DNA of 64,000 bases. Origin: Gyromitra esculenta (lineage: Eukaryota; Ascomycota; Pezizomycetes; Pezizales; Discinaceae). Below are positions 8,867 through 61,195 of the stretch, piece after piece. The first letter of the stretch is position 1. The number at the start of each line of letters is the position of its first letter. The notes beneath the pieces were generated by a model. The model saw only the letters and a program-made list of their open reading frames with translations. It was not told the DNA's origin and made no database searches. The DNA is taken from positions 1,302,001 through 1,366,000 of the forward strand of contig JBCAML010000007.1 in assembly GCA_038503075.1 (NCBI GenBank). Reading direction: 5' to 3'. Made by a program: the position numbers and the translations under genes.

Positions 8867-8950
8867 TGAATCAGCCGGGAATCGAACCCGGGTCGGGCGC
8901 AAATCATCAAGAGATGGCAAGCACCAGTGATACCCCTACACCACTGAATC
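8867..8950 (-). tRNA. tRNA-Gly (GCC), intron-containing
   Basis: The gene folds as a cloverleaf: acceptor GATTCAG/CTGATTC, D-arm, anticodon stem GGTGC/GCGCC, loop TTGCCA-T with anticodon GCC, and T-arm CCGGG-TTCGATT-CCCGG with the B-box GGTTCGATTCC. A 13-nt intron sits after position 37, the normal nuclear site. There is a T-T mismatch at pair 3-70, shared by all three copies in the window. The discriminator base is A. The first clear T run downstream is about 50 nt away, farther than usual. Confidence 0.88.
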
Positions 8951-9531: not shown

Positions 9532-9615
9532 GATTCAGTGGTGTAGGGGTATCACGGGCGCTTGCCATCTCTTGATGATTTGCGCCCGACCCGGGTTCGA
9601 TTCCCGGCTGATTCA
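9532..9615 (+). tRNA. tRNA-Gly (GCC), intron-containing
   Basis: Same gene as the copy at 8867 with a few changes: the anticodon stem is GGCGC/GCGCC, fully paired, and the 13-nt intron is identical. The 3-70 T-T mismatch is kept and the discriminator is A. A TTTTT run begins four bases after the discriminator, a good Pol III terminator, so this copy has the better termination context of the two in this pair. Confidence 0.92.
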
Positions 9616-39847: not shown

Positions 39848-41389
39848 ATGTCTGGCCTTCTCGGCCGCCTACGGCCCAACCATAGCTCTATTTCCACCAC
39901 GAACACTAATTCAGGTCTCTCCGGCCCTACTCCGCGAGCCAGCACAAATGATCCAAATGCCCTCGACCAAGCCCCCACAAACACCACAGTAACGAGAGAG
40001 AAACATTCAAGACGAGACCTTGAGGCTGCAGAGAACGATTTCGAAGGATGGGTGGATCCATATGGGCCTGCACCAACGGTGAAACAGTGGTTTAAGTGGT
40101 ACTGGCATGACCTCCTTGCGTGAGTAGACCTACAAAATGTTTTTCCTATAATAGCTTCATTGACAAACCTAAATTTCGAATTTAGATTCATCTTTATGGC
40201 TGCAATCGCTCTATGGCTGCTCATGTGGAGTCCAGTTCCGTATCGTAAACTTTTCGCTGTAACTTACAATCCGCAGTCTGGTCTCTCACCGTTAGTTTGC
40301 CCATGCTTTCTTCCTACTGCTGGTTCATCAAAGTTACTAAAATCCCATAGGAGTTCTGAAGTAATCTATCCTTCGTTCGCCCATCCAAAGCAGTCGCAGA
40401 TTATGCCCATCATCCCAGACGCCTTGATCGCCGTTTTCGTCCCCTGGTTCTCAATCTGGATTATTAATTTTTTCGGCATCTCTACCTATGGCCCCAACGG
40501 TCGACGCCTGAAGATGAAAGGTAAACGCGGTGGCTTCCTTTTAGGCCGTGGTTCGTTTTGGAATGTAAACAACGGCTGCTGGGGCGTAATATATGCTGTT
40601 ATGACTGGTGCTACCTTGCAAATTATCATCAAGCTTGTAATTGGCGGGCTTCGGCCCCACTTCCTGACTGTCTGCGATCCGCAGATTGATAAAGTGAAAG
40701 GCCAGGGATTCCAGAATTTGTATTTCGACATCACCTCCTGCCGCGATTACGAGAATAGGAAGGATGCGATTGCAAACGCCATGCAATCTTTCCCATCTGG
40801 TCATTCTATCGCAGCCTGGGCGGGGTTGTTTTACGCCTCACTATATTTCAATGCACACCTAAAGATCTTCGCAAACTACCATCCATCCCTTTGGAAGCTT
40901 CTGTTATTCGTAGCTCCTATGCTTGCTGCGACTCTGATTGTGGGTTCATTGACTCTGGACATGAGCCACAATTGGTACGACATCGTTGTTGGATCTATGA
41001 TTGGGGTCGTTATGGCTCTCATGTCGTATAGGATGTGCTTCGCGTCTATCTGGGATTTCAGATGTAACCACATACCTCTACCACGAAACAGAGAGATTCC
41101 AGCCTTTGGTTATGGAATACAAGAGTTGGAGAACTGGAGTGGCTGTGTTGCCACGAGGAAAGGCGGCTGGGGAGTTGCTTCGAGATATTCTCGGGAGGGA
41201 AGGGTTTGGGGCGCCCCAGGAGATTGCTCGGGCTTTTCTGTCAGCAGTCCAGTCGGTAGGGGAGAAGGCTTAAGAGATGGAAACCGTCACCACCATCACC
41301 ATCAACAACAGCCATACGTACAATCAGCTTATGCACCTGAAAGTTCAAATAGAGGGGCAGGGGTAAGAAACAGTGGGATTAATGAATAG
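39848..41389 (+). CDS. PAP2-family lipid phosphatase (DPP1/LPP1-like)
   Basis: Three exons (39848-40119, 40186-40290, 40351-41389) give 471 residues. The second intron (60 bp) is in frame and stop-free, but its GTTAGT donor, TACTAA branch and CATAG acceptor argue that it is removed. The membrane-protein core carries the three phosphatase motifs: K-x6-RP in KLVIGGLRP (about 218), PSGH (about 274) and a third motif S-x6-H-x3-D in SLTLDMSHNWYD (about 325-335). In the third motif the usual Arg after Ser is Leu. Several hydrophobic spans flank these motifs. Enzymes of the family dephosphorylate phosphatidate, diacylglycerol pyrophosphate or related lipids at vacuolar, Golgi or ER membranes. The C-terminal tail is low complexity and includes a run of five His. 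The true ATG is 39848; a longer open frame upstream lacks an ATG. Confidence 0.92.
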
Positions 41390-41991: not shown

Positions 41992-42086
41992 CGACATCGA
42001 CAGGATTTGAACCTATGCGGGCGAACCCAACAGATACCACGAATTTAGATTCGAGTATGTCGCCTTAACCACTCGGCCACGATGTC
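41992..42086 (-). tRNA. tRNA-Ser (CGA), intron-containing, stem mismatch
   Basis: Class II cloverleaf with acceptor GACATCG/CGATGTC, D-arm GCC/GGC, anticodon CGA in loop CTCGAA, an intron of about 14 nt after position 37, a long variable arm (GGG-TTC-GCCC) and T-arm with GGTTCAAATCC. Discriminator G, typical of serine. The anticodon stem ACATA/TCTGT has one mismatch that the plus-strand copy lacks, and the intron is two bases shorter, so this copy may work less well. Confidence 0.88.
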
Positions 42087-42380: not shown

Positions 42381-42477
42381 GACATCGTGGCCGAGTGGTT
42401 AAGGCGACAGACTCGAATCTATCAATTCGTGGTATCTGTTGGGTTCGCCCGCATAGGTTCAAATCCTGTCGATGTCG
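42381..42477 (+). tRNA. tRNA-Ser (CGA), intron-containing
   Basis: Almost identical to the inverted copy at 41992 but with a fully paired anticodon stem (ACAGA/TCTGT) and a 16-nt intron. Discriminator G. It is followed by TTTCGTTTTTTT, a strong Pol III terminator. The CGA anticodon reads UCG codons. Confidence 0.93.
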
Positions 42478-45400
42478 TTTCGTTTTTTTCCTTCGGTCCC
42501 TACAGATGGACAAGCAGAGAACACACGCATCATTGTGATGCCTGCAAGATTATTTAGTGGATAGCGAATACAGGTAGGGTAAGGATAGGTCTACAGAGCC
42601 ATTTAGCCTGACACCTAACTATGATCGACGTCTCTCCCCGGACAAAGTTAGTTAAATTGTTATCGCGCCAAATGGTTGAGTCAACTACAGCTGAGGATCA
42701 TGCAGTATTAAACCATTCCCCATCGCCCTATTACATTATTTGCTTTCAGGGTTTAATTACTCCTATCGTTTCCTTAAATACATTTGTGTATATGTAGTTA
42801 CGCGCGAATTTGTATAACGCCACTTAAAAAGACAGGATTTTTATTCTACTTACCTGCGAGCACCCTTGAGTACCACAATACGAGATATGATTGTGACAGT
42901 ACCAAACTAATTAGTCAACCCATTTCTATTTTCCATAGCCCTAGATTCCAAGTGTTAGAAGTTACCTAAGATTCCTAGCCATATGTACCTACCTAGATGT
43001 GCGACGGAACGACCCTAAAGTGTACATGTAGTCGTAGTTTAAAATCATAAAATATCACTCGATTAACTGTAGGTTGTCAAAGGTATTCGTTTATTTAATT
43101 ATTTATTAGGCACTTTGGAGTTTGTCCATGATCTCCAGTGGCTTTTGTTACGAACTAATTACGCGGGTATCAGGGTGGGCGGGGTTCTCGAATCGCGTGG
43201 TGGCTCTAGCTCTCCGGGTTTGCTGGCGCGAGAGTTGCGGCTTCGACTACATAAAGTGGTTTCCCTAGCCCCTAGAGTGGTCAAGATTAACAAACTACCA
43301 GCAAAGGCCTAGCAACAAGATACTAGCAGAAGATAAAATAACGTATGTTCTCAGTCTATAGTACTTCAGATATATCATCCTCTAACTGTTAGATTCTTTC
43401 GTCTTCTGAGGCCGGAAACCTTGGAACTTTAGTGTTAAGGTTGGGTTCACTGGCTAGGTACTTTTCTGAATTTCGGAGAACCATTTTTGACTACTTAGCG
43501 TTGGTTCCAGTCCTGGTGTCCTTTTGTCGAACGGCCATGTAATCCCCTGACTTCTACTAGATTTAAAGTCAGTGCTCGGTCAACCCTACCTCTCCAGGTC
43601 TCTGCCAATCACTAATAAGAAAGCAATACTTGTAGGGGGAGTACTTGGGAAATCGTGTGACGAAAAGCGGTATCTAATTTCTCTCTTGTTTTCTAATTTT
43701 CGCATTCTAGTTAGCTCAAACCATCAAATTCTCTATATTTCTCAGTGTTGGAATATTAGGGATGAACGAGATCGATTGCTTTTATTGCTTACTTACTGAG
43801 GAGAGGCTCCACCCTTCCCCTCGATATACTACTTCTTCACACCCACATGGTACCCGTGCTTTCCCTGTTCCTGCACTTTCGCCGAGTCCTCCGAGAGTTC
43901 GCCCTCCGAGACTTTGCACAGGCCTCCAATCGAACATCGGAAATCATAAATTAGGAAGCCGCACCCAACACCCAGTGACCTTCCTCCTCTTGGAACATCG
44001 GTAAAGCTGCACTCACCCAAGTTAGCATGTCATCCTATAAAACTAATGATCATCGCGTAAGCAGAAAGGAAATCCATATGGGTATGGAAAAACTCTTACT
44101 AAGTCGATAACCTTGTCTTTAAGGAGATAGGAAAAAGGTCTTGAGAGCGCAGGATGGATGAAGTTGTTGTAGCAGAGCGAATTTAGTTGGATGACGACTT
44201 ACCCAAAAGCTTTAGCCACGTGCCTGGGCTTTTTTGCGCTACTCGTCTTATAAGGGTTCATGGTATAACGACACTTAGTTTATATATAAGGATAAGAGGC
44301 CAGATCTGTAGCTTTTGAATATTTAAAATAGCAATATCTTTTACTACAATGACCCTTAGGCTTGGAGTCTTTTGCTATAAGTACCCATATTATACGCAGT
44401 TCAGGGCTAGCACTATAGCAAGTCCTGGCGGGCGGAATCGAGCATTCCATCAAGAATAGTCCTCTAATTTGGTTGAAGCAGTAGCCACGCATCAAGTAGT
44501 GATATGAGTTGGTGCATGTGATGAGCTGGAGGAATACATGTAATAAACAAGAAGATACGACAAATTTATTTCACGGTTATAGAAAGTTACTTCTGGAAAC
44601 AGTTTCTAAATTTGGGATTGTTAAAAGGTTCTAGTTGGAAGGGAATCAGGCGATCGGGCTTATATTCCACTTCTAGGCTCTATCTAACTTCGTTCAGAGG
44701 CGCTAAAAAAGAGTTTAGTGACTAGGATTCCCACATGGTTACCCACATGATCACCCACAGCAGTACCAACTAACCAGGCGGTGCGACATTTGGATATGCC
44801 AGAGTGGATGGGATGGCTCACTCTCATCATTCTATGACCGAGCACACAATTCTCGGCGGTTTTGAATTAGAAGGAAATTGCCGACTTGAATCCACACACA
44901 TTATTAGACCCTTTACCCAAGATTCGAATCTAGCTAAGAACCAGAACTGAAGTCTCTTGGGTACGAGTTCTATTGGATTTGGTACGGGCCCGTGTATGCA
45001 GGCTTTGTAGGCCTGCCAGAATATTTCACTGGGTTTGTTCATATCAAGACAGAGTATTGCTATGGGATTAGAAAGCCCATCCCTAATATAACTGCTCTTA
45101 GGAATGACTTCCAAACAGCTGTGGGTCCTAATGCTCGGTCGGGGAGGACGCTCTCGACGAACCCATAGAATAGACAAGCTATGGGTACCTTGTAGGTGCA
45201 AAGAGTAGCTTATATAGATGGAGGGCGAAACCTCACGAGTGAGAAAATAATTAGGTGTTGTTTTCAATGAGTGATAGATTATGATTCGAAGCCTACCCTG
45301 GAAATACAATACCGACTTACGAAAATAGATTCATAAGTTTAAGGATACGGAGTATTGATAGCGTTAATCGCTAATGGCATTTTCTCTCAAATTCCATCCT

Positions 45401-45548
45401 AACAAAAGCAGCTGGTAGCTAAGTGGCACACCCACATAGTAGGAAGCCTTATTACATGCAGTCGTGGGCAAAACACTGCTCTCTGCGATTCTAGCTCTAA
45501 ATACTTGACCAATATTCTCTAGTGATCTATGAGATTCCATGTCTTTAG
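42478..45548. other. 3-kb region without a supported gene
   Basis: Short frames only. Two patches with higher GC (about 43140-43250 and 43800-43990) differ from the AT-rich surroundings but match no family I know. TACTCGTCTTATAAGG near 44.24 kb, preceded by CTGGGCTTTTTT, echoes sequence at 8.2 kb. TACATGTA occurs at 43023 and 44535. A 160-codon minus-strand frame (44827-45309) has no recognised domain. Confidence 0.4.
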
Positions 45549-46010
45549 TATTCTAGACGGATATCCCGGCCGATTCGGAAAAAGCATATATTTTGCTTGG
45601 TCTTGCGTAAAACACCACCTATATTTATTTATCTTCTTTTTGATGAAATAAATATACGAGAGACAGCTAAAAACATAGATTATACGGTAGATGACGCAAA
45701 TACATGTATATGGCAAGCTAAAATATATATTGTGATAGTTCTTGGATCTACAATACAAACTGAGTGTTTGCTATCTAGCAACCGGAATATCCGTCAAGAA
45801 TACTAAACACTTAGTTTGTATTGTAGATCCAAGAACTATCACAATATATATTTTAGCTTGCCATATACATGTATTTGCGTCATCTACCGTATAATCTATG
45901 TTTTTAGCTGTCTCTCGTATATTTATTTCATCAAAAAGAAGATAAATAAATATAGGTGGTGTTTTACGCAAGACCAAGCAAAATATATGCTTTTTCTGAA
46001 TCAGCCGGGA
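45549..46010. repeat. Near-perfect palindrome with 206-bp arms
   Basis: Arms 45564-45769 and 45805-46010 are reverse complements without gaps and with three differences, all transitions; the spacer is 35 bp. The right arm ends inside the tRNA-Gly gene (its last 14 bases, including the discriminator), and the left arm starts with a matching copy of that tRNA end (TCCCGGCCGATTCGG). A second repeat, TTTAGTATTCTWGACGGAT, is found just left of the left arm and, inverted, in the spacer. The symmetric open frames reported on each strand are products of this palindrome and not genes. It could fold into a long hairpin as DNA or RNA. Confidence 0.92.
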
Positions 46011-46082
46011 ATCGAACCCGGGTCGGGCGCAAATCATCATTGATAATGGCAAGCGCCCGTGATACCCCTACACCACTGAATC
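45997..46082 (-). tRNA. tRNA-Gly (GCC), intron-containing, joined to palindrome
   Basis: Same tRNA as at 8867 and 9532, with a 15-nt intron in place of 13 and a paired anticodon stem GGCGC/GCGCC. The 3-70 T-T mismatch and A discriminator are kept. Its 3' end runs directly into the palindrome. The first T runs in its transcription direction are TTTT and then TTTTT inside the first arm, so Pol III should normally stop before the hairpin is complete. Confidence 0.88.
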
Positions 46083-53251: not shown

Positions 53252-55093
53252 GGTAATCGTATTCGAACGAGACAAGTGATGTAGAAGGAGGTAGAAAGGC
53301 AGTACAGAAGGTGTTTTGGAGTATTCAAGTTATTTGGTGGGTTGAAAACAGATGGGTAGAACATTGCGACTAACCACGGTGCCAGGGGTATTTAAGCAAC
53401 TGAAGGAGGGGCAATCGATTGCAATATCGTGCTTAGTTCCCGAGTCATTACAAGTTGCGCTGTACGCAATAGCCGAACTAGAGAAGCCCCGAGCCAAGGA
53501 GGCGAATAGCATCAGAGAGGAATTTTCGTGAACGAGTGCACAACAGTTAGTAGTAATAGTCGCACGTTGGCATAGCTCTGAAATGGGTGATATTTGCATG
53601 GGAGTAATTGGTTTCTTCGACGTTTCTATAAAATCTAGACCCTTCGATTCTTTTGCTTTTCCTCGTTCTCCGCTGTTGTTGCTCGTCTGTTTGGAACAGA
53701 AAAGATAACGAAATTTGCATGAAATACATCTCCCAACAGTAAACATCCACGCGTATATCATCGTATACACGCTGCATAGCCATTTTGGATACAGCTACTG
53801 GACGTGTTGGTAGGGCCAGTGTGGTTACTAGGGGACGGCCATCTGCCCCAGTAAATAGAACAATACAGTTTCATTTGATTCAGAGTGACATATGCAGGAT
53901 CGAAGGTAAGGATTGGAAGCATTGCACGATCCGGAATGTTCGAATCGAGGCGTTCCGCGAACTCGGGAGCCACCCATCGTTTGGTACGACGAACTCGTCC
54001 CAATTGCTCGCACTCGGCTAACACGAGGCTCGTACAGCATGTACATGTACGTCACATGGACGTTGTACTAGTACATTGCATCATGTGTGTCGTGCATATG
54101 TCTAGGTGCGGCAGCCAACCTCATCGACGTCCAACACCTTGGGTCGAAGTCGGCATTCCATTTCAAGTAATTCGGTCTGGCTTCTTGTCAATAAAACACA
54201 ACCTTCATACTAAACCTCTTATCCCAACCCTCGTCCCGGGATAGCTATCACCGCCCAAATTAAATTAAATTCACTACGGATTCCCAATGCCGAACCTTGC
54301 TGAAAGCCAAAGCAAAGTTAGAGCATCTCTGTCTGTTCAAAGCCAGCATATCAGTAGGGTGCTTCATGCTATTTTGACTTTAGTTTCGAAGCTTCCCCAC
54401 AATCACTGATCGGTATGCTGACCGCAGCTTAGTGTATTGTATTGCAAAACGGGCCTCTTCTAGGACAGCAATGGTATTCGGTTGATTGTGGTCCGATTTT
54501 GCAGCGCGGGGACAGAGTTTGATGCAGCTCGAGCCTGTGGCAAAGCAGATTGCCAACGGAGTTCCCCAGTGCTATAATCAGGGGTTATCTCAAACAGAAA
54601 CAGATATAGGCAGCCAGAATCTCAAAAACATGTCGAACGCTGCTGGATAAACTCCTGCGTGAAACTGAAGATACATGACCAGAAACACCAAAACCAGTTA
54701 ATGATTTAAAAGTGACCCTAGAGCGTGCCTAAAGGCATGTTAGAGTTGATTGAATTTAAGCAGCGAGATCACAACGCTTCCTCCTGCAGTTATGGTGCCA
54801 GGGTACATTACAAGCACAAGGGATGAGGATATGTCGTTAATCGTAAGCCAGGTGCCTATCATTTCATTAGCCCCGCTAACCGTTACCTTTATCAGGCTGC
54901 ATAGTCTCAGCCCTAACCCTTTGGATCCCGAATCAGTATTCGTGATCAAGTAATTTCTTTTCATCGTCCAAGAGACGCTGCAGCTACTGGTCACGATTTT
55001 GCTGCTGGGATAACATTGCATACCTAAGATCGATTCTATCCCTGAGTGGTTCTGAAGAGCCGCTTCGTGACTGGGCTACACAAGATGAACATA
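53252..55093. other. Intergenic, SDR promoter side
   Basis: The first few hundred bases are the SDR promoter. TACATGTA occurs at 54042 and CCCTAACCC at 54911. Frames of 75-146 codons overlap on both strands without domain similarity. Confidence 0.4.
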
Positions 55094-55226
55094 CTCGGGG
55101 CAGATGTGGAGAACCTGAACATAACTTTCGCTGGTAGAGATTTTTGATTCGCCCTCACCTAGCACGTCGACGTATTGATTGGTCAACTCGCACTTGCATG
55201 TTCAGGTTTTCCGTAACTGCCCCGAG
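55094..55226. mobile_element. 133-bp MITE, copy 2
   Basis: TIRs start CTCGGGGCAG and end AACCTGAACAT with a few internal mismatches. TA flanks both sides (55092-93 and 55227-28). The core word GATTCGCC begins at offset 52, as in copy 3, and in copy 1 the related AATTCGTCC begins at the same offset. The interior shares TTTTTGATTCGCC and CACCTAGCAC with copy 3. Confidence 0.85.
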
Positions 55227-56461
55227 TACTCTGGTGCATAATATTAGGTGCATATTTTTATGTGCAGCAAACCGCTCCACCGATATCCCAAGCTTGTCGC
55301 TACTACAATCGTGAAAGCTTTTTTCGCATAGTCTAATTATAACTACCAGGACAATATACAAGATAGCCATTTAAGCTTAGATAGGACACACTACAGGTCA
55401 CTAACTGGTCATAAACAAACCAATAAACCCGTTACAAAATGCATCGCCAACAGCAAAAGTAAGGTTAGGGTTACATCAAAACCGTTAGGTTGTAACACAA
55501 GGCTGCGATGTATCACACAAACCACTCCGGTCAATTATCGTGACAACCAAATCACCCCAATGCTCCATCTTGTCCTTCACCGCCACGACACCCGTTCAAT
55601 CAGCACACAAACGCGGCTAATAGGAATTCAGCGGTGAGAAATATTTATGAAAAAGCACTCAGCCCAACCAGCGAACCCGTTAATCGACGTTCCGATTCAA
55701 TCAGATCTCTAGGACAAAGAGTTAGGTCACCCTAAGTTCCTTGAGACTTCAGATTCAAAATATCTCGTCTATCTTGAGGCATTTTGCTGTCGTTAGATAT
55801 TTGATCTCAACCAGACTTGAATCATGATCCCAGGACACCGGAAATCTCCGCGGTTCGTGGAAACACCTAACTTAGCACCACCAGTTACTTTAGCCATAGC
55901 CCTGGACCCCATGGAATCGTATATCTGGTAATCCACTCAAGTCTACTGAGATGTTGTTGACTCTTGATTTCCTTAGCAACAACCAATGACGGAAACAGAC
56001 GAGTGATACTCTGTGATTGCTCACACACCCTAGGATCAAGCTAACAAAGCGAGAAATATAGTAAACGAATGGATCAAGTTAGATTTAATAGGCATAAAGC
56101 CGATTCGAGCTCTTAGCCATAGCTACTAACAGGAAGCCACGCGAAACTTTAATCGAACGTCGCCTATATCTGATGCGAGCGAGAAAGTGGTAGTTCCTCT
56201 TATTTAGCTTGTTTCTCTCCATATTGGAATAGAAATCATCGAATGATTTCCACGGATTTATTTCAGTATCCTCACGCCCCTCACCTCCTTTTCAGCAGCA
56301 AACTGATTGCCAATAGCCAAATCGAATAATGTCCCCACACTGGGGTACTCCATGTTCTCCGCAACCTTTATCCAGCAGGGCTAGTGGATAACATGTAAAT
56401 CTGATCTGTCGCGTCAATTCTGCGAAGCAACCATGCCATTAGTCCAGTGCACGATAATCAT

Positions 56462-58500: not shown

Positions 58501-59186
58501 CCAAAAATTACCACAGCACAAAGTCCTCGGTACCTTGATGATAGGGGAATAAAAAACAACCACCCTCCCCTCCCCCCTAAAAGAAATGCTTTATTTTTCG
58601 TAATAGAATTTGATTTTTTTTTACTGTACGATTTTGCTGTGGAGTCTCAAGACTAACTTCATTAATACCATACCACCATTCTTAGGATCGAAATCTCTTA
58701 CGAGTTTTGCCGAGTCTTCTAGTAATAGGCAAGTTATAGCATGCATAGCACAAGATGCGCTACCACTCACTGGATAACCCCGGTCCTTTACGCCTGTATT
58801 AGCTAGTTTGTTCCACATTGACCCAGGAATCGGGGCCCTAGTGAATGCCAAAAGACCAATCAGTCGAGGTTCCTAGCGAACAATTTATGGGTGGTATATA
58901 AAAGAAAGACCACACAACCTCTAGGGAAAAAAAGAAATCTAGCGTACGGCAAAAATGAAGTCGCCGAGCATCTGATTAAAAAAGATATGTGCTACTTGGA
59001 AAAGGTCAGTACGGAATTCCCTCACCTTCTAGATAAACCTTTTTTTCTCGGCCTCAAGCGAGAGAATGTGTGATTTCAATCTTAGAGCTCCTGGCCGCCC
59101 AGTCGTGTAGCACGTGGCTGCGAACTGTCTCATAACGTGGTGAATCGGCTGGGGATCTTTCAGGATAGACTGTGGAGTAATACCTA

Positions 59187-59319
59187 CTCAAGGGAAGCAT
59201 AAAAAACGTGAACATACCTTTTGCTAGTAACGACTTTTGATTCGCCTTCACCTAGCACATCGACGGATTAATTCGCCAGCTTGCATTTGTATGCTCAAGC
59301 TCTCTACGCCTGCCCTGAG
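59187..59319. mobile_element. 133-bp MITE, copy 3, degraded
   Basis: Same length as copies 1 and 2, GATTCGCC again begins at offset 52, and CACCTAGCAC is shared with copy 2. The left TIR (CTCAAGGGAAGC) and right TIR (complement CTCAGGGCAGGC) have drifted more. TA is present on the left (59185-86) but changed on the right. This is the oldest-looking copy. Confidence 0.78.
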
Positions 59320-61195
59320 GACATATATTGTCTCCCTCAGACCGATGAAGAGTTTCGCTAGACTAAAAAGATCCCCCCCCCACATTCTAGCCCTTTGAGG
59401 CAGTTTTCTCGGGGATGTGCTCTCTATAGCTAAGTTGTCGCTCTCCGTTTATAAATCGCGCAAATATTTGTGAGAATATTGGATGGACTTTGCAAACCAG
59501 TATCTCTCGCAAACGGTTTGACGCATATAAGTCTGGCGTAACTCATGTCAAAGCACCAGGCTGCAATTCAGCTTGTCAATACCTCCTTCCGCGACACACG
59601 AGTGATAGCCTATGATCATTGGCTCCATTTTGGGAATTCACCGAAATTGGAATTAAAATGTCTCAACTTGCCCAAAAATAACAAAAAAATCACACGCATC
59701 TTGGACTATGACGACCGACGCCTTTCAGCGGGTCCCAACACAGCTACCTTAGGGAAAGAGTGAAAGCGCGATGATAACCATGGTAGTCTAGACGCCTATT
59801 CATCACTGAGAAGGCAGAAGTGCGAAGGATGTTACTCGTGCAAAACGCGACGTGGCATACGACGGAGACGATTCGGGGACTCGGGTCGCGTAGAAAACGG
59901 ACGACAACGACACCGCGGGAACGGCAGGTTTTTCCGGCTCGGGTCGCGTCAGCCGCTATAAATGAGACGTTATCGTATTCCGAAACAATAAACAATCTTC
60001 ATAAATACTCACTCGCTATGAAACCCTATCTCACCAGGTGTCCTATCTTGCTAGAGAAGCAGAGCACACCGAAGAGATTTTACTGCGAAAGAGTTTCTAC
60101 AGTTTCAGACCAAACGACTCTGGGCCCGTTCACCCACCATGACATTCGAAAACCATGGTTTTGGGTCGAAAGCGGATTGGCAGGACCGTTCGGTTACCCA
60201 AAAATTCCCTTCATAATTGGGATCATGCGGGTGCGATGAGAAAAAGCCCGATCCGACAATTGCTTCCGACCGAATTTATATTCCTCTTGCAATTGGCAGG
60301 AATCACGGCTGTGACACACGCCCTCGAATCCACTCGATCGAACCCAGCCGTGCCTAACAAATCCCCGGGTTTATGCCAGAATGCAACCGCGGGAGAAAAC
60401 GGCTCAACAGCAAACTTACACACCAATTTCGATCTATGTAAATAACTTCTGCAGGGTCTGATAACTTTATCTAAAACCCTAGAAATCCTGGGTTCAGTTT
60501 TGTTCTAAGGATTTGTATTGCCTACGTTAATAGCTTTCATAGTATTTTCATTATACCATTTAGCTATCCTCGCTGTAAAATAAATTGAGAGCGCTCTTTC
60601 CCAGCCTAAGGCTTAGTATTATTTACTTCTCTATAACAGCATTTTGTCTGTCGTATTGGAGGATATCGTGGAGGTCTCTCGCTGGCTGCAACGTGTTTTC
60701 CATCCCGGGAACTTGTTAGACGTGGTTATGATTTACAATATATGGTGTGGTTTTCCAGCCGACTTCGCTAGACCTTTTTTTCCTTTTGTCGAGCTGAACA
60801 ATACACGGTAACATATTGGCTCTTGCTTTTCCTCCATGGAATAAGTATCCTCCTAATTTATTTTATGTGAATTATGTGAATTATCACCCACAACCCGCAT
60901 CAGACCCTAACGAATCGGGGTTAGGGTTGTAGATCGCTATTATTCTAACACCTCGAGCTCTCTAATTCTATCCGCCTAATACCACTACCACCAAAAGGAA
61001 TACCAACTCTAAGGTGCACGATCTTTTACTCTTCTCATCACTCGGGTTCGCTTGATACCAAACACAACAACCGTACTTTATCGCTCAGCGGCTTGATCAT
61101 ATTTCCACGTCCTACCTCGAGAACTCCAACCAACGCCATTCCCTGTTATTTCATAGCCTTCAAAACTCATTAATCGTTCATATCGTCATGATTTC
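59320..61195. other. Intergenic, relic sequence, 3' side of MFS gene
   Basis: It contains zinc-cluster-like relic B, a frame of 139 codons (59820-60239) without known similarity, and GGGTTAGGG at 60918. The last 200 bp should include the 3' end of the MFS gene. Confidence 0.4.
59820..59960 (+). pseudogene. Zn2Cys6-like relic B
   Basis: The frame reads RRQKCEGCYSCKTRR and then loses the pattern. A shift of one base continues with V-x-YDGDDSG, where a zinc cluster would have V-K-C-D. This suggests a frameshift and a Cys-to-Tyr change. No downstream gene body can be recognised. Confidence 0.35.

Follow-up and report, generated by a model that had tools for sequence, protein, structure and literature searches.

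A long near-perfect palindrome beside a tRNA-Gly(GCC) gene of Gyromitra esculenta and its probable origin from a small circular or looped template

The window analyzed here is a 64,000-nt stretch of the Gyromitra esculenta genome (assembly GCA_038503075.1, contig JBCAML010000007.1, here C7, positions 1302001-1366000), and it carries a long, almost perfect palindrome that runs into the 3′ end of a tRNA-Gly(GCC) gene. The left arm (45564..45769, forward strand) matched the reverse complement of the right arm (45805..46010, reverse strand) over 206 bp without a gap, with three mismatches, all transitions (45571/46003, 45577/45997, and 45762/45812), around a loop of 35 nt (45770..45804); this ungapped match reproduced the geometry given in a preliminary description of the locus (206-bp arms, three transitions, and a 35-bp spacer). 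When the match was extended through mismatches, the arms reached 211 nt with 98% complementarity. The predicted RNA fold of the palindrome amounted to −350.2 kcal/mol, compared with a mean of −86.35 kcal/mol for 100 shuffles (z −53.5), and the palindrome is far beyond chance. A background set of 72 sequences of the same genome (the window and 71 loci; 339,193 bases, 264,427 of them non-redundant), which lie mostly around tRNA and RNA interference (RNAi)-type genes and are enriched for these instead of forming a random sample, contained no second near-perfect palindrome with arms longer than 34 nt and a short spacer. The runner-up in this set, at locus L014, has 34-nt arms and a 21-nt spacer. 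Within the sequences read, the palindrome stands alone.

The tRNA-Gly(GCC) gene was placed on the reverse strand at 45997..46082 by ARAGORN, Rfam, and comparison with its gene family. The Rfam tRNA model scored 46.1 bits at 45997-46082 (gathering score 29), and the default Rfam scan of the whole window did not list the gene. ARAGORN run without introns read the anticodon as Asp(atc), whereas reading out a 15-nt intron at 46032-46046 gives GCC; the anticodon GCC would thus require removal of an intron, the boundaries of which are our own reading. Eleven copies of tRNA-Gly(GCC) were found in the genome, with near-identical exons and variable introns. The last 14 nt of the gene lie within the right arm, and the left arm holds a copy of them with two changes, in agreement with the tRNA identity and the copied 3′ end stated in the preliminary description. 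The 3′ end reads CTGATTCA in 10 of the 11 copies and CTGAATCA in the remaining one (on C2), whereas the copy in the left arm has CCGATTCG. Because the right side runs on into a gene of this conserved family, while the left side has CCGATTCG and no gene, the right side is taken as the donor and the left side as the derived copy on sequence grounds. Inspection by eye of the acceptor stem also revealed an apparent U3-U70 mismatch in 10 of the 11 tRNA-Gly copies (GATTCAG ... CTGATTC), and the copy at C2:2103292 (CTGAATC) pairs fully.

Base-by-base comparison of the two sides revealed that the likeness extends beyond the left arm. A block F (45544..45569, forward strand), which straddles the outer border of the left arm, repeats in inverted orientation a loop-proximal block F′ (45782..45807, reverse strand); F′ spans part of the loop and the adjoining bases of the right arm and would be the donor of F. 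The two blocks belong to a 29-bp inverted match (45541-45569 against 45782-45810, 90%), and their local score of 17 exceeded that of all 300 dinucleotide shuffles of the left flank, the maximum of which was 11. A search of the genome (47.1 Mb in 23 contigs) for the core motif of F returned these two places without mismatch and one more place with three mismatches, and the backward control returned none. This recurrence of loop sequence beyond the left arm was missed in the preliminary description.

The arm match and the F/F′ match follow two registers, p+q=91574 (45564-45769) and p+q=91351 (45544-45569), which differ by exactly 223. Read from its outer end, the left side follows the donor from 45807 down to 45782, crosses at CCGG to 46010, and then runs down to 45805. 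The donor segment (45782..46010, reverse strand), as delimited from the base-by-base table and the tRNA family, comprises the last 14 nt of tRNA-Gly, the 3′ flank, and the loop-proximal block, and has CCGG at both ends. It is tiled once by the left side with no gap, with a shared 6-bp joint and, where the circle would have opened, an overlap of 3 bp (45805-45807). The 6-bp joint is TCCCGG (45564..45569), which would be the circle-closing junction and contains the CCGG microhomology that the tRNA 3′ end has in common with the end of F′, and the overlap corresponds to a TTT at the left end (45544..45546) and another at the right end (45767..45769) of the insert, both matching the same donor triplet, 45805-45807. 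The two registers delimit an inserted copy of 223 bp at 45547..45769, the match starting at 45544 with the shared TTT, that lies 12 bp beyond the CCGG of the donor in inverted orientation. Because the loop sequence recurs in inverted form beyond the left arm (45544-45569 against 45782-45807), the insertion is circularly permuted: the left side is an inverted copy of a single 223-bp unit with its order rotated, not a plain inverted duplication.

These features bear on several simpler origins. A plain inverted duplication or fold-back through one template switch, with the likeness of F and F′ being unrelated, would agree with the fold-back inverted insertions known in yeast, which were mostly about 5-34 bp where measured (PMC11724301). 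However, such an event does not create F, the F/F′ score lies far outside the 300 shuffles, and the motif occurs otherwise once in the genome, with three mismatches; we consider this origin very improbable. A hairpin-type transposon of the miniature inverted-repeat transposable element (MITE) kind, with long terminal inverted repeats and a 3-bp target duplication, could account for the long arms and for the TTT at both insert ends. On the other hand, MITEs are expected in multiple dispersed copies and no other copy was found in the 47.1 Mb, the right arm runs into a tRNA gene of a conserved family, and the insert ends are not mutual inverted repeats by eye, which leaves this explanation barely credible. 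When copies of the arms or of F were sought genome-wide as signs of a mobile element, only the tRNA family and the 3-mismatch F match were returned. The arms had no other match beyond the tRNA and approximately 17 bp of its 3′ flank, in a search that skips very common words. Because the arms beyond the tRNA-proximal end lack another match, the palindrome does not appear to belong to a visible transposon family.

An assembly or amplification artefact was also considered, as the structure is known here from assembled sequence alone and amplified DNA can produce inverted chimeras. The mid-contig position, the four differences between donor and copy, the rotation, and the microhomologies common to the ends all argue against it, making it a very slight possibility. 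The concern of the preliminary description about an assembly fold-back is weakened, since a fold-back gives a plain mirror copy, whereas the locus holds a rotated copy with differences.

We propose that the palindrome probably originated from a microhomology-driven duplication via a circular or quasi-circular template of approximately 223 nt beside the tRNA gene, since this would account at once for the rotation, for a copy length of exactly one period, and for the ends held in common. Replication or breakage near the tRNA gene would yield either a strand closed on itself at CCGG or a template forming a loop there; a 3′ terminus with TTT as its last bases would pair with AAA of the circle or loop; and exactly one turn would be copied, after which the new end, again TTT, would re-pair where it had left. 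An equivalent route would be the integration of a 223-bp circle by exchange at TTT. If the model holds, the insertion would have been conservative, neither adding nor removing other sequence, with the long palindrome as a by-product. The hairpin would then be expected without a selected function, and it resembles a scar left by repair more than a working gene. The proximity of the copy to its donor favors a template looped at a stalled fork over a closed circle, and tRNA genes in yeast are documented to slow forks and cause damage (PMC5413955). One circular piece would likewise be favored over two separately captured fragments, which appear to be a poor fit because complex insertions with two same-locus fragments in the same orientation are very rare in yeast rad27 mutants, in which such fragments are mostly mutually inverted (PMC11724301).

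The same arrangement could in principle be reached in several steps, namely a tandem duplication of the 223-bp unit at CCGG, a local inverted copy of one boundary-spanning period, and reduction of the tandem to a single unit. None of these steps is unusual, recombination between 223-bp direct repeats is conceivable, and a tandem duplication followed by partial deletion is the false-positive pattern described by Takahashi and Innan (PMC7188851); nevertheless, this route needs three events and an inverted copy exactly one period long, and the genome searches revealed no trace of a second donor unit, so that we regard it as unlikely.

Several observations weigh against the proposed one-turn copy. 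The pre-insertion sequence is a reconstruction; F is short, with about 20 bp between the junctions; and chance might have brought the two free ends to within 3 bp of each other, with rough odds of 7 in 200 if a uniform range is assumed. It is also improbable that a free circle would re-insert as little as 12 bp from the segment it was copied from, unless it had stayed at the fork throughout. Moreover, in the human cases Takahashi and Innan noted no local homology where the segments were inserted, unlike the present locus (PMC7188851), and none of six other inverted tRNA pairs of the genome had such a rotation within 140 nt.

Donor and copy differ at four positions, comprising a transversion at 45555 in block F and the transitions at 45571, 45577, and 45762 in the arms. 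All four lie at most 9 bp from a joint and none lies mid-arm, which corresponds to P of about 0.0005 under random placement (200,000 trials) for a 9-bp distance picked after the data had been seen. Error-prone synthesis at the joints would explain the clustering, and so would later correction of the arm middles by pairing; homogenization of arms by template switching is described in yeast (PMC8604942). The suggestion in the preliminary description that the high identity implies a recent event or active correction is accordingly left with two compatible readings, as differences confined to the vicinity of the junctions fit junction errors or later correction alike.

The two arm changes that could be polarized replace T by C and A by G in the left copy. 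Repeat-induced point mutation (RIP) was rejected as their source, since its changes run in the opposite direction. These two changes, which fall within 45570-45578 (CTGATTCAG to CCGATTCGG), are mutually complementary within a short palindrome, CTGA-T-TCAG, and look as if one change had been templated from the other side.

The position of the palindrome directly behind a tRNA gene raises the alternative of a functional hairpin-RNA locus, in which read-through by RNA polymerase III (Pol III) or an RNA polymerase II transcript would give a 206-bp double-stranded RNA (dsRNA) cut by Dicer, and the identity of the arms would be kept by selection or correction. The fold energy of −350 kcal/mol agrees with such a locus, and the genome contains RNAi-type domain matches, including Piwi domains, RNA-dependent RNA polymerase at three loci, and paired RNase III in long frames at two loci (C3:156287 and 156845; C6:2222290 and 2222845). 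Against this, the T-run survey and the base table revealed a run of four T (T4) 13 nt after the tRNA end (45980..45983, reverse strand), a likely Pol III terminator, and a run of five T (T5) 59 nt after it (45933..45937, reverse strand), which falls within the arm transcribed first and is a further candidate for termination. Read along the tRNA strand, the sequence has T runs at +13 (T4), +59 (T5), +273, +323, +384, and +413, and a full transcript must pass T4 and T5 in the first arm, and then T4, T5, T4, and T5 in the second.

The terminators of 43 tRNA genes were surveyed, comprising 30 of 62 genes from a non-exhaustive genome listing, the 11 Gly genes, and two in the window. T4 was the first run of at least four T in 11 of the 43, the tRNA-Gly of the palindrome included, and in five of these 11 no T5 started within 60 nt; T4 thus probably terminates Pol III in this fungus, including at +13. 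The rule is not absolute, as one of the 43 genes (C19:292883) had no T4 within 150 nt. Read-through of the full hairpin by Pol III is consequently predicted to be unlikely, in line with the argument from first-arm T runs already made in the preliminary description. Rfam microRNA matches in the hairpin (mir-3913, MIR4208, MIR403, and others) were rejected, as all are below their gathering scores and reflect a perfect hairpin, not homology. The alternative is retained because tRNA-linked hairpin RNAs exist. Neurospora crassa milR-4 is co-transcribed with two tRNA-Ala genes and was shown as a small RNA (PMC3547838); it resembles the present locus in that an ascomycete tRNA gene is directly linked to a hairpin-forming sequence, and differs in being a demonstrated small RNA, whereas the palindrome is known from sequence alone and has likely terminators in its first arm. 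In a re-analysis of fungal hairpin RNAs, the main text of which does not mention Morchella, loci overlapping tRNAs are treated with caution (PMC9757828). Taken together, we consider a hairpin-RNA locus rather improbable, and a dsRNA or small-RNA role of the palindrome is putative only, the sequence analysis having yielded no positive evidence for it.

Other tRNA genes of the genome also occur in inverted pairs. In lists that are non-exhaustive (one scored 63 of 2006 candidates), all seven sequence-matched pairs of the same tRNA within 1.5 kb were inverted, as was presumably one more on C2, judged by equal score. Two pairs lie in the window (8867-8950 / 9532-9615 and 41992-42086 / 42381-42477) and the others at C7:1195128/1196182, C5:1263613/1264387, C10:1588339/1588802, C1:3132826/3133403, and C12:184433/185017. 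They comprise two Gly pairs on C7, Ser-type pairs on C7 and C5, and others on C10, C1, and C12. No direct same-tRNA pair within 1.5 kb appeared in these lists, the nearest noticed being 2.4 kb apart (C3, by equal score only). Each of the two Gly pairs has an intron sequence common to its members, while introns mostly differ between loci.

It is tempting to suppose that stalled forks at tRNA genes of this fungus generate very small circular or quasi-circular copies, which are then inserted close by the other way round, giving long palindromes and, over time, inverted tRNA pairs. However, rotation was sought in the 140-nt flanks of the six readable inverted pairs and found in none (0/6), and these flanks were no more alike than 120 control comparisons, except for a T-rich match in L009 (12 against a control maximum of 10). 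A common origin of the palindrome and the inverted pairs is therefore speculation, and we hold it to be doubtful.

Some further features were recorded in the surroundings and at related loci. At L010 4210-4369 and L014 4393-4552 (C7:1495709 and C7:1551470), only 5 nt separate a tRNA-Gly from a downstream tRNA with anticodon CAT, and a T run comes only after the latter, an arrangement which suggests two-tRNA transcripts. A dispersed repeat of about 100 bp, unrelated to the palindrome, lies about 700 bp to its left (44742-44845); among the matches listed for the left flank 43000-45563 (40 of 66 candidates scored), 39 of 40 fall on this repeat, with 77-85% identity across contigs. Two 141-nt direct repeats (55089-55229 and 59182-59322) are 72% identical and 4.1 kb apart. 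The best named match of a PAP2 protein encoded at 40160-41386 was from Morchella sextelata (78% identity over 85%), and another match reached 85% over 74%; judged by this one protein, the source would probably be a morel-like member of the Pezizales.

Long near-perfect palindromes are unstable, and their mode of origin is often hard to read from sequence. In the present case, the readable joints and the rotated one-period inverted copy would link palindrome formation to an intermediate, small and either circular or looped, at a tRNA gene. The loop copy outside one arm provides a concrete signature for searching other genomes, and the locus is a caution that a hairpin beside a tRNA gene need not be a small-RNA gene. 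Titles and opening lines of abstracts on Morchella tRNA inverted repeats or inverted tRNA gene pairs mentioned no such structure.

Among known systems, the templated insertions at yeast breaks (PMC11724301) share with the palindrome the short copied segments, short microhomologies at the joints, inverted local copies, and fragile donor regions. They differ in that same-locus fragments in rad27 and RPA backgrounds are mostly mutually inverted, whereas the two blocks here share one orientation and are rotated. Origin-dependent inverted-repeat amplification (ODIRA; PMC10766186) likewise links replication with template switching, re-integrates an extrachromosomal intermediate, and leaves palindromic junctions. 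However, it gives inverted triplications jointed at short inverted repeats, whereas the present locus has one extra rotated copy and no third, and the joint of its circle corresponds to CCGG repeated directly in the donor.

The proposed origin is comparable to duplication mediated by extrachromosomal circular DNA (eccDNA), in which a donor segment is circularized, cut elsewhere, and re-inserted, so that the order of two blocks is swapped while the donor is kept. Three such human duplications, of about 20-130 kb and in separate regions, were reported by Takahashi and Innan (2020), who did not rule out other scenarios and expected undetected cases, most likely below 500 bp (PMC7188851). In the present palindrome, blocks contiguous in the donor occur in swapped order in the copy (registers 91351/91574, with the swap at CCGG), the blocks tile the donor with a 3-bp overlap at 45805-45807 and no gap, and each block has two copies, with no extra copy nearby that would betray a tandem duplication and deletion, in a genome search that skips very common words. 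The event differs from the human cases in being a 223-bp, inverted, palindrome-forming insertion in a fungus, 12 bp from its donor and with microhomology at both joints. If the proposed origin is correct, it would be a natural case, at a very small size, of a class within which the human survey could detect events only above 500 bp.
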